A stretch of DNA of 64,000 nt from Colwellia sp. (GTDB lineage: Bacteria; Pseudomonadota; Gammaproteobacteria; Enterobacterales; Alteromonadaceae), in contig NZ_JABSPA010000010.1 of assembly GCF_013214175.1 (NCBI RefSeq), forward strand, positions 62,001 to 126,000. Direction: 5' to 3'. The position numbers and the translations under genes are program-made. A model generated the notes under the pieces. It made no database searches, was not told where the DNA came from, and saw only the letters and a program-made list of their open reading frames with translations. This document shows, piece by piece, positions 3,110 to 35,061 of the stretch. Every line of letters begins with the position of its first letter. Position 1 is the stretch's first letter.

Positions 3110-3244
3110 CTACACTAATTTATTAAAGAGGATGCCTTTACGCTCTTCTTCATTTTTCTTAGTAATAATCACACTTGGTAAAAGTGCTGTATTCTTTTCT
3201 TGTTCATTCGTTGCGGCGGAAAAATTGGTGTCTTCAATACTAGA
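3110..3244 (-). pseudogene. Flagellin C-terminal fragment, distal copy
   Basis: Read on the minus strand, this copy stays open for 44 codons from SSIEDTNFSAATNEQEKN to a KGILFNKLV end and a TAG stop. The intact gene has SRIEDTDFAAATSEQEQN and the same KGILFNKLV end. Amino acids are better conserved than expected for free decay. No start codon or separate promoter was seen, so it is called a fragment. Confidence 0.8.
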
Positions 3245-3303
3245 TAGGGGCGTACTATTCTTGATGTATCGTAAGTAAGATATCGCAGATTGACGTTCTG
3301 TAG

Positions 3304-3450
3304 TTAGACTAATTTATTAAAGAGGATGCCTTTACGCTCTTCTTCATATTTATTAGTGATGACGGCGCTTGGTAAAAGTACTGCATTCTTTTCTTGTTCA
3401 TTTGTTGCGGCGGAAAAATTTGGCTATAAAATACCAGAACGTGAAACACT
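3304..3450 (-). pseudogene. Flagellin C-terminal fragment, proximal copy
   Basis: This copy reads FSAATNEQEKNAVLLPSAV to EEERKGILFNKLV and a TAA stop, again in the flagellin frame. It has a TAG at about 3424-3426, where the intact gene encodes the IED segment. DNA similarity to the intact gene continues to about 3450. It lies directly downstream of the flagellin stop codon. Confidence 0.8.
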
Positions 3451-3497
3451 TTTCTTAAGGCCTCGTAATTAAGGTATCGCAGATTGACGTTCTGTCG

Positions 3498-4184
3498 TTA
3501 GACTAATTTATTGAAAAGGATGCCTTTACGCTCTTCTTCATTTTTTTTAGTGATTATGGCACTTTGTAAAAGCACTGCGTTCTGTTCTTGTTCACTGGTA
3601 GCGGCAGCAAAATCTGTGTCTTCAATACGAGAACGCGAAGCACTGACATTGATAATACTGGTTTGGTAGGTAGCTACTTGGCTGACCAAAGCATTATTTT
3701 GGGCACCTAAAGTACTGGCACTTTCATTTACTTGTTGTGAGGTGTCTTGAATAATGGTTTGTGTCGTCGCCGGATCGCTAGCATCGAGACTACTGATAAA
3801 GTTGTCTTGCCCTAATACATCACTAGCTAGGGTGTTTATTTGTTCGGTGATTTGGTCTAACTCACCTTGAATAGCATCACCAGCATAAAGCGGGTTGCCT
3901 GATTGTATCGATAACTCTTGCGCACGCAATAAGCCATCATTAATCGCAGATAAAGCGCCAGCCTCAACATTATTAATATTAGCTTGGTCTTGTGCGTTAA
4001 AGCTCAGTTGTTGGTTTTGATTAATTTGACTGGTGAGTCGATTAGCAATTTGCAAGCCAGCAGCATCATCGGCGGCTTTATTAATGCGTTTTCCAGAGAC
4101 GAGTTTTTCAGCTTGCTGTTCTCTTTGCTGATTGAGTTTATCAATAAAGCTTAAAGTAGCGGATGATTGATTTACCGACAACAT
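3498..4184 (-). CDS. Short flagellin-like protein
   Basis: The 228-residue protein has the flagellin D0/D1 N-terminal coiled coil (QREQQAEKLVSGKRINKAADDAAGLQIANRL) and a C-terminal flagellin helix (SRIEDTDFAAATSEQE). There is almost no variable D2/D3 region, so it is far shorter than common flagellins. Its end, TKKNEEERKGILFNKLV, differs from the usual LLG/LLR-type flagellin end. A TGAGG-type ribosome binding site precedes the ATG. No other flagellar genes are near, so it may be an accessory flagellin or a flagellin-like secreted protein. Its 3' end is repeated downstream twice. Confidence 0.85.
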   Translation of the reverse strand: MLSVNQSSATLSFIDKLNQQREQQAEKLVSGKRINKAADDAAGLQIANRLTSQINQNQQLSFNAQDQANINNVEAGALSAINDGLLRAQELSIQSGNPLYAGDAIQGELDQITEQINTLASDVLGQDNFISSLDASDPATTQTIIQDTSQQVNESASTLGAQNNALVSQVATYQTSIINVSASRSRIEDTDFAAATSEQEQNAVLLQSAIITKKNEEERKGILFNKLV

Positions 4185-32467: not shown

Positions 32468-33595
32468 ATGACCAATGTAGTAAAAAGTAAACGTATCGCG
32501 GCAATAGATTGGATGCGCGGTTTTGTTATGATCATCATGGTGCTGGATCATGTTTCAATGGTTTATAACCGAGATCATTTATCAACTGACTCCGCAGTCA
32601 ATTATATTCTAGGCACTCCGTTGCCTGCGTTCGAGTTTTTTAGTCGCTGGATAAGTCATATTTGTGCGCCTGTTTTTGTTTTTTTGGCTGGTACTGCATT
32701 AGCTATTAGTGTTGAGCGCAAGTTATCAAGGGGTTTTGACAGTAAAGGCATTGATAAAGATATTTTGATTCGCGGCGCTTTTATCGCCCTATTAGACCCA
32801 ACCATTACTTCATTCTTCGGCGGAAAACTGACTTTTCAAGTACTCTATGCCATTGGTGTAGCTATGATGTGCATGGCCTTTTTTAGGCGCTTATCCACTA
32901 CACAATTATTGATTATTGCCATGGCGTGGATATTAGGTGGTGAGTTAGTAACCGCGCAGTTCTGGTTTGCTGGCGGTCAAGAGCAATCTATTCTTGTCGG
33001 TTTATTAATAGGTAAATATTCATCGGCAGACCTAAGTATTTCTTACGCGTTAGTACCTTGGTTATCAGTAATGATTTTGGGTTGGGTTTTTGGCCGCTAT
33101 ATTCTAGATTATGGCGATGGCAAGGTGACTGTTAGCCCGGCTAAATTACTTTTCCGCTTAGGCTTTGCCGCATTAGCTGCTTTTGTTGCTATCCGTTATT
33201 TCAATGATTACGGTAATATGTTTTTATTAAAAGAAGATAACAGTTGGCAACAATGGTTACATGTTAGTAAATATCCACCATCGGCAAGTTTTATCATGCT
33301 TGAGTTAGGGCTTATGGCGGTTATTCTAGCGTTAATGATTAAAGTTGAGCAGCGCATTGGAGTGCGCCCTAACGGTGTCTTACTGGTTTTCGGCCAAACT
33401 TCTATGATGTTTTATTTAGTGCATCGAATTCTCTTAACCGGTAGCGGTACTTATGGCGGCATGAGAGATATAACGGACCTATCAGGTACTTATATAATAA
33501 CGGGTGTTTTTCTACTTGCCTTATATCCATTTTGTTTGTGGTATCGAGGTTTTAAAGCTAAACACCCTGATTGCATTTGGTTGAAATATTTGTAA
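32468..33595 (+). CDS. DUF1624 family multi-pass membrane protein (HGSNAT-like)
   Basis: The 375-residue protein has about nine or ten membrane helices. The start RIAAIDWMRGFVMIIMVLDHVSMVYN is the hallmark of the DUF1624/heparan-alpha-glucosaminide N-acetyltransferase superfamily, with a conserved Asp and His (VLDHVS). Later parts include SHICAPVFVFLAGTALAIS and GQTSMMFYLVHRILL. Members are thought to acyl-modify envelope sugars. AAGGAAG precedes the ATG. The acyl donor and acceptor are unknown. Confidence 0.83.
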   Translation: MTNVVKSKRIAAIDWMRGFVMIIMVLDHVSMVYNRDHLSTDSAVNYILGTPLPAFEFFSRWISHICAPVFVFLAGTALAISVERKLSRGFDSKGIDKDILIRGAFIALLDPTITSFFGGKLTFQVLYAIGVAMMCMAFFRRLSTTQLLIIAMAWILGGELVTAQFWFAGGQEQSILVGLLIGKYSSADLSISYALVPWLSVMILGWVFGRYILDYGDGKVTVSPAKLLFRLGFAALAAFVAIRYFNDYGNMFLLKEDNSWQQWLHVSKYPPSASFIMLELGLMAVILALMIKVEQRIGVRPNGVLLVFGQTSMMFYLVHRILLTGSGTYGGMRDITDLSGTYIITGVFLLALYPFCLWYRGFKAKHPDCIWLKYL

Positions 33596-33608
33596 GTTCG
33601 CAGTAACC

Positions 33609-33646
33609 AAAAAAGGCCGTCATAGTTATATTATGACGGCCTTTTT
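33609..33646 (+). terminator. Rho-independent terminator of the DUF1624 gene
   Basis: AAAAGGCCGTCATA pairs with TATGACGGCCTTTT around a short AT loop, and a T tract follows. Confidence 0.9.
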
Positions 33647-33682
33647 ATTATCAATCATTTATGAAAAGTTAAATACTACAAG

Positions 33683-33912
33683 CAGTAGTGCTGGATCATT
33701 TTGGTTAGTATTAGCTCGTTCTTTTCTACTCTTCATCGATATGGCAGCTAAAAGTTAAAAACAGTAGTGCTGGATCATTTTGGTAAGTAATAGCTCGTTC
33801 TTTTCTACTCTTCATCGATATGGTAGCTAAAAGTTAAAAACAGTAGTGCTGGATCATGCTGGTGAGTAATTTCTCAGTTTTGGCTACTCTTCATTAATAT
33901 GGTCGCTAAAGA
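33683..33912 (-). repeat. Three tandem copies of the argE 3' end, 79-bp period
   Basis: CAGTAGTGCTGGATCAT starts at 33683, 33762, 33841 and 33920, exactly 79 bp apart each time. The last is inside argE, spanning its final codons. Read on the minus strand each copy encodes the argE C-terminus MIQHYC followed by F or L and a stop; the copy nearest argE reads AKTEKLLTSMIQHYCF versus DKTERLLTKMIQHYCC in argE. The copies have diverged from each other and contain frameshifts further up. Confidence 0.92.
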
Positions 33913-35061
33913 TTAGCAACAGTAGTGCTGGATCATTTTGGTTAGTAACCGCTCAGTTTTGTCTACTTCACTATGAGCCAAGAATTCATTTGGCTGATGG
34001 GCTTGATCAATAGAGCCAGGACCAAGCACAATGGTTTGACAGCCGAGTTGCTGAATATAAGGCGCTTCGGTCGCGTAATTAACCGCACAACAACTATGGC
34101 CACTAATTTCTTCAGCAATGTCTATCAATGTACTGGGTTTCTTTTGTTCGAAGCTAGGTGAGCTTGGGTGCATTTCAGCAAAGGTAATTCGGCCAGGGTA
34201 AAGTTCAGCTAAAGGTTTTAAGGCCTCACTCAACCAGTTTATCAATTCGTCATCACTCATGCCCGGTAAAGAGCGTAAATCAATATCTAGGTTACAGTGA
34301 CCACAAATTCGATTGGCATTATCGCCGCCAGAAATCGCCCCTAAGTTTAAGGTCGGCGCTGTTACATCAAAGGCTTTGTTTTCGTAATTTAGGTGCAGTT
34401 TTTCTTTTAATTCAATTAATTGACCAATGACTTTATGCATAATTTCTATGGCATTTACACCAAGGTTAGGTTTACTTGAATGGCCAGATTTACCCTCTAC
34501 ACTAATTCGGTGTGACATGTGACCTTTATGCATAACCACGGGTACTAAATTAGTTGGTTCACCGATAATGGCAACATCAGGCTTTATCGCTTGGCTCTTG
34601 GCAAAAAAACGGGCGCCAGCCATAGTCGTTTCTTCATCAGCAGTGGCAAGAATGTATAAAGGTTTTTTCAGTTGAGCAGCGGTTAAGTTTTTACAGACTT
34701 GCAAAATAAAAGCGAAAAATCCTTTCATATCACAAGTACCTAAACCAAAAAACTTATCATCTTGAATGACTACTTTATGTGGGTCTGATTGCCAGCTGTT
34801 TTCATCAAAGGGTACAGTGTCACTGTGGCCTGCCAGTAATAATCCGCCTTCACCACTACCTAACTTAGCAAGTAAGTTAAATTTATTGTCGGTCTCAGGT
34901 ACGGCTTGAATTTCAATAGTAAAACCAAGTTGCTCAAACCAGGTGGCTAAGAGTTGGATTACCTCTTTATTACCTTGATCCCAGCTTGGCTGAGTAGAAC
35001 TGATGGAAGGGCAAGCGATTAACTGGCTTAAGCTTTGACTGAAATCAGGCAGTTGTATCAT
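33913..35061 (-). CDS. argE: Acetylornithine deacetylase ArgE
   Basis: The 382-residue M20-family metallohydrolase releases ornithine from N-acetylornithine. Metal-site motifs: LLLAGHSDTVPF (His and Asp), GLGTCDMKGFFAF (bridging Asp), ATADEETTMAGA (catalytic Glu) and IIGEPTNL. The dimerisation domain follows. The end is KMIQHYCC. It is divergent from argCBFGH(A)-argA, as in Vibrio and Shewanella. An ARG box in the intergenic region should serve both directions. Its 3' end has three downstream duplicates. Confidence 0.95.
   Translation of the reverse strand: MIQLPDFSQSLSQLIACPSISSTQPSWDQGNKEVIQLLATWFEQLGFTIEIQAVPETDNKFNLLAKLGSGEGGLLLAGHSDTVPFDENSWQSDPHKVVIQDDKFFGLGTCDMKGFFAFILQVCKNLTAAQLKKPLYILATADEETTMAGARFFAKSQAIKPDVAIIGEPTNLVPVVMHKGHMSHRISVEGKSGHSSKPNLGVNAIEIMHKVIGQLIELKEKLHLNYENKAFDVTAPTLNLGAISGGDNANRICGHCNLDIDLRSLPGMSDDELINWLSEALKPLAELYPGRITFAEMHPSSPSFEQKKPSTLIDIAEEISGHSCCAVNYATEAPYIQQLGCQTIVLGPGSIDQAHQPNEFLAHSEVDKTERLLTKMIQHYCC

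Follow-up and report, generated by a model that had tools for sequence, protein, structure and literature searches.

A tandem array at the tail of argE in Colwellia sp.

Why should a housekeeping gene be followed, beyond its own stop codon, by further copies of its own coding end? The question is raised by argE in a stretch of 64,000 nucleotides from Colwellia sp., the whole of which was analysed and is referred to here as the window. The argE product matches NCBIfam NF003474 (acetylornithine deacetylase) at 598.7 bits against a cut-off of 460, carries the Pfam domains Peptidase_M20 and M20_dimer and is of full length, like the argE of relatives. Below, G000 denotes the window's own genome, G001 and similar labels the genomes of relatives, and L numbers extracted loci. 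Across the array, argE faces a convergent gene for an HGSNAT_cat/acyltransferase-type protein, and the parts are arranged as follows.

32468..33595, plus strand: convergent neighbour, HGSNAT_cat/acyltransferase-type protein (ORF list, domain search)
33610..33646, no strand: 15-bp perfect inverted repeat with a 7-nt loop and arms ending A5/T5, between the convergent genes
33676..33754, minus strand: distal copy (MIQHYCL, stop)
33683..33967, minus strand: tandem array, period 79 bp, 3.6 copies
33755..33833, minus strand: second full copy (MIQHYCF, stop)
33834..33912, minus strand: first full copy beyond the argE stop, a short post-stop spacer and then the argE tail with its own stop (MIQHYCF, stop)
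33913..33967, minus strand: genic copy, the final 55 nt of argE with its stop (ending MIQHYCC, stop)
33913..35061, minus strand: argE, acetylornithine deacetylase, 382 aa, intact (ORF list; NCBIfam, Pfam)

The 17-mer CAGTAGTGCTGGATCAT is found at 33683, 33762, 33841 and 33920, exactly 79 bp apart and with the last site within argE, just as an earlier note on this DNA had reported; there is no other site in the window with three mismatches or fewer, and in 100 shuffles the 17-mer occurred 0.12 times on average and never four times. Nor is homology confined to this block, the case in which that note was prepared to give up the array: a stretch of 143 nt is repeated in register at 87% and 78% identity, and Tandem Repeats Finder places the array at 33683–33967 with a period of 79 bp, 3.6 copies, 87% matches and 0 indels. 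The end originally given, 33936, was too short, the true end being 33967. The last 55 nt of argE, stop included, form its share of the array, the remainder lying past the stop. Moving away from the gene, the four copies end in MIQHYCC, MIQHYCF, MIQHYCF and MIQHYCL, each followed by a stop on the minus strand, which bears out the earlier reading of MIQHYC plus one residue. The post-stop spacer of the first full copy is best split at 15–25 nt, a weakly determined figure, and the sequence past the stop of the distal copy resembles that directly 3′ of argE in G001 and G052.

The inverted repeat at 33610–33646 lies outside the argE unit and beyond the array. It is probably a two-way terminator for the convergent genes, and it is absent from the output of a simple terminator scan. 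The unit itself is confined to one locus, the next best match elsewhere in the genome having an E value of 0.39 over 17 nt, and a dispersed repeat is thereby ruled out. The argE locus is a tandem repeat, a minisatellite, which begins inside argE.

The preferred explanation, with a probability of about 0.78, is that a short tandem duplication spanning the gene tail and its stop was tolerated and subsequently changed in copy number, with no need for any function. One end of this duplication would have fallen in the last argE codons and the other a few to tens of bases past the stop. The first copy would have kept the complete gene end and its stop, leaving argE intact, such that the duplication was not removed by selection; replication slippage, or unequal recombination among the copies, would then have expanded and contracted the array, while those past the stop drifted. 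We infer both the mechanism, slippage or recombination, and the neutrality. The spacer within the array matches the sequence downstream of the distal copy hardly better than shuffles do (4, 6 and 12 of 60 shuffles were as good), and where the original duplication ended on the right is therefore not firmly fixed.

With regard to age, the gene and its copies, pooled over copies, differ at 25 of 152 coding sites and 11 of 48 post-stop sites. This is near the divergence of 23% at fourfold sites between G000 and G001, which argues that the array is old and not an assembly slip. Judged by these differences, the array would be roughly as old as the split between G000 and G001, and G001 may have lost it.

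Among 39 genomes of the genus searched for argE ends, G000 included, 38 gave a match, the lone exception (G051) being 76% complete. The only other genome with a homologous array is G010, which has three such matches: its contig C10 opens on an 80-bp unit, a homologue of the 79-bp unit of G000, in 6.9 copies, and its contig C7 stops in argE at the point where the C10 array begins; the array is cut by the contig end, and seven copies are seen, the last partial. By eye, the junction of spacer and argE tail is nearly identical in the two arrays. Copy number accordingly runs from 3.6 in G000 to 6.9 seen in G010, a comparison between species only. The remaining 36 of the 38 matched genomes have a single argE-end match and no array, with the proviso that this search can overlook a diverged second tail, as happened in G021. 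There, a protein search detected a single further argE tail about 1 kb downstream, on the far side of a ParE/Phd pair and preceded by a run of N; in the 41 genomes which that search covered, 25 of them from the genus, it returned no other extra tail. The two argE tails of the G021 locus (L021 2646–3760) enclose a ParE toxin and a Phd/YefM antitoxin in an insertion-like arrangement at the argE 3′ end, the domain search having covered two ORFs of L021.

Tandem Repeats Finder, applied to the argE loci L009–L164 at periods of at least 30, reported arrays only in G000, G010, L105, L111 and L123. Those of L105 and L111 were set aside, lying some 100–115 bp past argE and not including it, as was the argE-tail repeat of L123 (Thalassomonas sp. 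M1454), which is 206 bp long, 100% identical and has N at its joint, and is likely an assembly artefact. A long inverted repeat was also seen by eye directly 3′ of argE in this Thalassomonas locus (L123 ~3645–3720). In an argE tree of 23 genomes, G000 falls with G001 and G052, and G010 with G005 and G049. Since the tree separates the two groups, either an old array was lost in many species, or the arrays had two origins, or there was exchange.

The argE array is not alone in its placement. Tandem repeats were sought in 1.664 Mb of G000, about a third of the genome (C12 1–1,200,000, C1 1–400,000 and the window), with genes called mechanically as ORFs of at least 80 codons. The sample holds 23 arrays with a period of at least 30 and 16 with a period of at least 50, the latter comprising seven within coding sequences (CDS), six across a gene 3′ end, three intergenic and none across a 5′ end. 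Six of the nine non-CDS arrays therefore run across 3′ ends and none of the nine across a 5′ end, an outcome (at least six at 3′ ends with none at 5′ ends) reached in 2 of 5000 random placements of nine arrays, the two window arrays included; leaving out these two, which prompted the question, there are four across 3′ ends, none across 5′ ends and three intergenic. Two of the three intergenic arrays of this period lie 23 and 45 bp past a stop, and the third 344 bp upstream of a gene start. At periods of 30–49 there are three further intergenic arrays, one of which sits between divergent genes at 42 and 46 bp from their starts, such that upstream regions are not wholly free of arrays.

The six genes with 3′-end arrays are argE, a flagellin-type gene (below the NCBIfam cut-offs), a proA-like gene (below the cut-off, with only 157 of 429 residues given as query), pdhR (above the cut-off), a TPR-type gene (TPR matches below the cut-off) and one without an NCBIfam match. 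The gene after the TPR-type gene is presumably mshE, and on that assumption the TPR-type gene is mshN-like. It was the flagellin-type gene, also in the window, to which the earlier note had likened argE.

3114..3613, minus strand: flagellin-type gene 3′-end array, 194-bp period, 2.6 copies (for comparison)

The likeness holds to the extent that this array likewise begins in the last codons of its gene; it carries no tie to surface variation, the layout being shared by four further genes. Copies of the flagellin-type array number three in G000, two in G001, three in G002, three seen over two contigs in G020 and one in G052. The array at the mshN-like tail (G000 C12 621605–621992, 159-bp period) ends 7 bp before the next gene in the same direction, and both genes are open.

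A precise boundary at the stop codon was considered as a signature common to these arrays and was dropped once a split test had given scattered right-hand ends, at 8–34 nt past the stop for argE, 18–49 for the flagellin-type gene, 0–7 for the proA-like gene, 2 for pdhR, 8 for the TPR-type gene and 22–32 for the gene without a family (ranges being the best splits within one point, over all units). A same-strand gene follows three of the six array genes, and convergent neighbours are therefore not the whole reason for the 3′ placement. Duplications at gene starts would disturb promoters or ribosome-binding sites and be lost, while those at gene tails would persist; within the portion of the genome sampled, such selection accounts well enough for arrays being placed at gene tails. 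In 400 kb of G045 there is one array, inside a CDS, and in 400 kb of G029 there are five, three intergenic and two inside CDS. As neither sample has an array across a gene end, the 3′-end pattern is seen in one genome only. The three intergenic arrays of G029, with periods of 161–201 bp, fall within about 11 kb (L265–L284; G029 C1 ~1256009–1266602).

Two hints fit the duplication view less well, namely a third-codon bias and the spacers shared by distant species. Over the six arrays, differences between gene and copy number 24, 25 and 64 at the three codon positions, and those between copies 15, 20 and 30, in pairs that are not independent. In three of the six arrays, the columns that vary among the non-genic copies divide as 6, 8 and 17 (17 of 31 at the third position, nominal p 0.02 against one third), and the sites private to the gene as 3, 4 and 13 (p 0.004). 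The latter bias is what selection on the gene should produce. That among the copies is not predicted by plain decay, and in a small and nominal test it suggests copies derived from the gene on separate occasions or from more than one allele.

The spacers were compared over 26 nt past the stop, with one G000 copy and two G010 copies as queries. The three inner copies of G000 are identical to the two tested G010 copies at 19–21 of the 26 positions. Against the sequence downstream of single-copy argE, the array spacers score 17–18 of 26 in G002, 14–15 of 26 in G020 and 5–11 of 26 in G005 and G049, and against the distal downstream sequence 8–9 of 26 in G000 and 12–14 of 26 in G010. The argE genes of G000 and G010 differ at 48% of fourfold sites, and the likeness of their spacers goes beyond what would be expected of drift at that divergence, though 26 nt is little. 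The pattern suggests exchange between lineages, or some constraint.

Exchange is the basis of the alternative that survives best. DNA from other Colwellia lineages would have recombined at argE and been added instead of substituted, such that argE ends of different origin came to be stacked; homology-facilitated illegitimate recombination could add imported tails. Such an origin would suit the third-codon bias among the copies, as well as the spacers of G000 and G010, which are closer to each other and to the G002 downstream sequence than to those of their neighbours. At its coding end, moreover, the second full copy resembles the argE end of G001 (..CGAGCTATTACT..), and the lead of G001 over G002 in likeness to G000 argE is down to 0–2 points in the last four sliding windows. 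That lead shrinks without reversal, however, and no full switch of G000 argE to G002-like sequence was found at its end; of 21 sliding windows along the whole gene, 19 have G001 or G052 as the closest or joint closest sequence to G000 argE, the period is fixed within each array (79 or 80 bp), and the spacer test is based on 26 nt. An imported origin is, on balance, unlikely. Still more doubtful is a wider proposal in which a process of the lineage acts specifically to copy 3′ coding ends anew just behind the stops of many unrelated genes, partly with the tails of other lineages, and in which the arrays would form a fossil record of former gene ends as opposed to plain decayed duplications.

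Very little probability attaches to the idea that elements integrating at the argE 3′ end each brought a replacement tail, the repeats being their attachment sites: the argE tails of G021 do flank about 1 kb with a toxin-antitoxin pair, but a 79-bp unit leaves no room for a gene or element, and similar arrays occur at unrelated genes. It is harder yet to credit that the downstream copies are a silent store of variant gene ends from which gene conversion alters the C-terminus. One expressed copy followed by partial copies is indeed the layout of such a system, and the last residue does vary among the copies (C, F, F, L); the genes affected, however, include the proA-like gene, pdhR and argE, where variation has no obvious value, and the terminal Cys of argE is in none of the three downstream copies, with no sign of conversion at that codon in the one genome.

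A functional small RNA or a peptide MIQHYC-X encoded by the repeats is equally hard to entertain: the four copies share the 17-mer unchanged and each keeps its stop, and the region 33600–33980 folds better than shuffles (z −2.8), but that stretch includes the terminator-like hairpin, which is strong and sits beyond the array, and the 17-mer block is well conserved within argE itself in relatives, such that no further reason need be sought for its being identical across the four copies in G000. A known RNA family was rejected, no Rfam match for the region coming near its gathering score (the best has 24.4 against 59 bits). A conserved MIQHYC mini-peptide is unlikely from the sequences compared, and as a candidate was rejected on the G010 copies, two of seven of which have ATA in place of ATG. 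The hint in the earlier note of a special function or mechanism thus finds no support, given also that no such array was seen at argE in most relatives and that copy number varies by species.

Three known systems stand close to the locus. Bacterial minisatellites serve as the VNTR loci of MLVA typing, and the argE array shares with them a head-to-tail order, one period, units of tens of bases, degenerate copies and a copy number that differs between lineages (here between species only); it differs in having a gene's coding end as its first copy. The rtT repeats after tyrT in Escherichia coli are tandem units, each reproducing the 3′ end of the gene before it, as do the argE units, and have been linked with a small RNA and a peptide; there the gene is a tRNA gene, whereas here it encodes a protein. 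The MIRU repeats of Mycobacterium, a dispersed family of tandem units overlapping stop codons, are similar to the argE unit in size, in tandem order and in that overlap, but the argE unit is at one place only. Among the titles and openings of abstracts listed by one open-access library, none dealt with gene-tail arrays, which does not show that they are absent from print.

The argE array is, then, real and old, and is a further case of a known class, the bacterial minisatellites. For argE itself it means little, the gene being intact, and the more interesting part of the finding is that, in the portion of G000 sampled, arrays sit at gene tails. Arrays that lie, outside CDS, at tails and not at starts in this third of the genome give a simple measure of where duplications are tolerated, and those whose first copy is functional allow duplications to be dated against the gene's own divergence.
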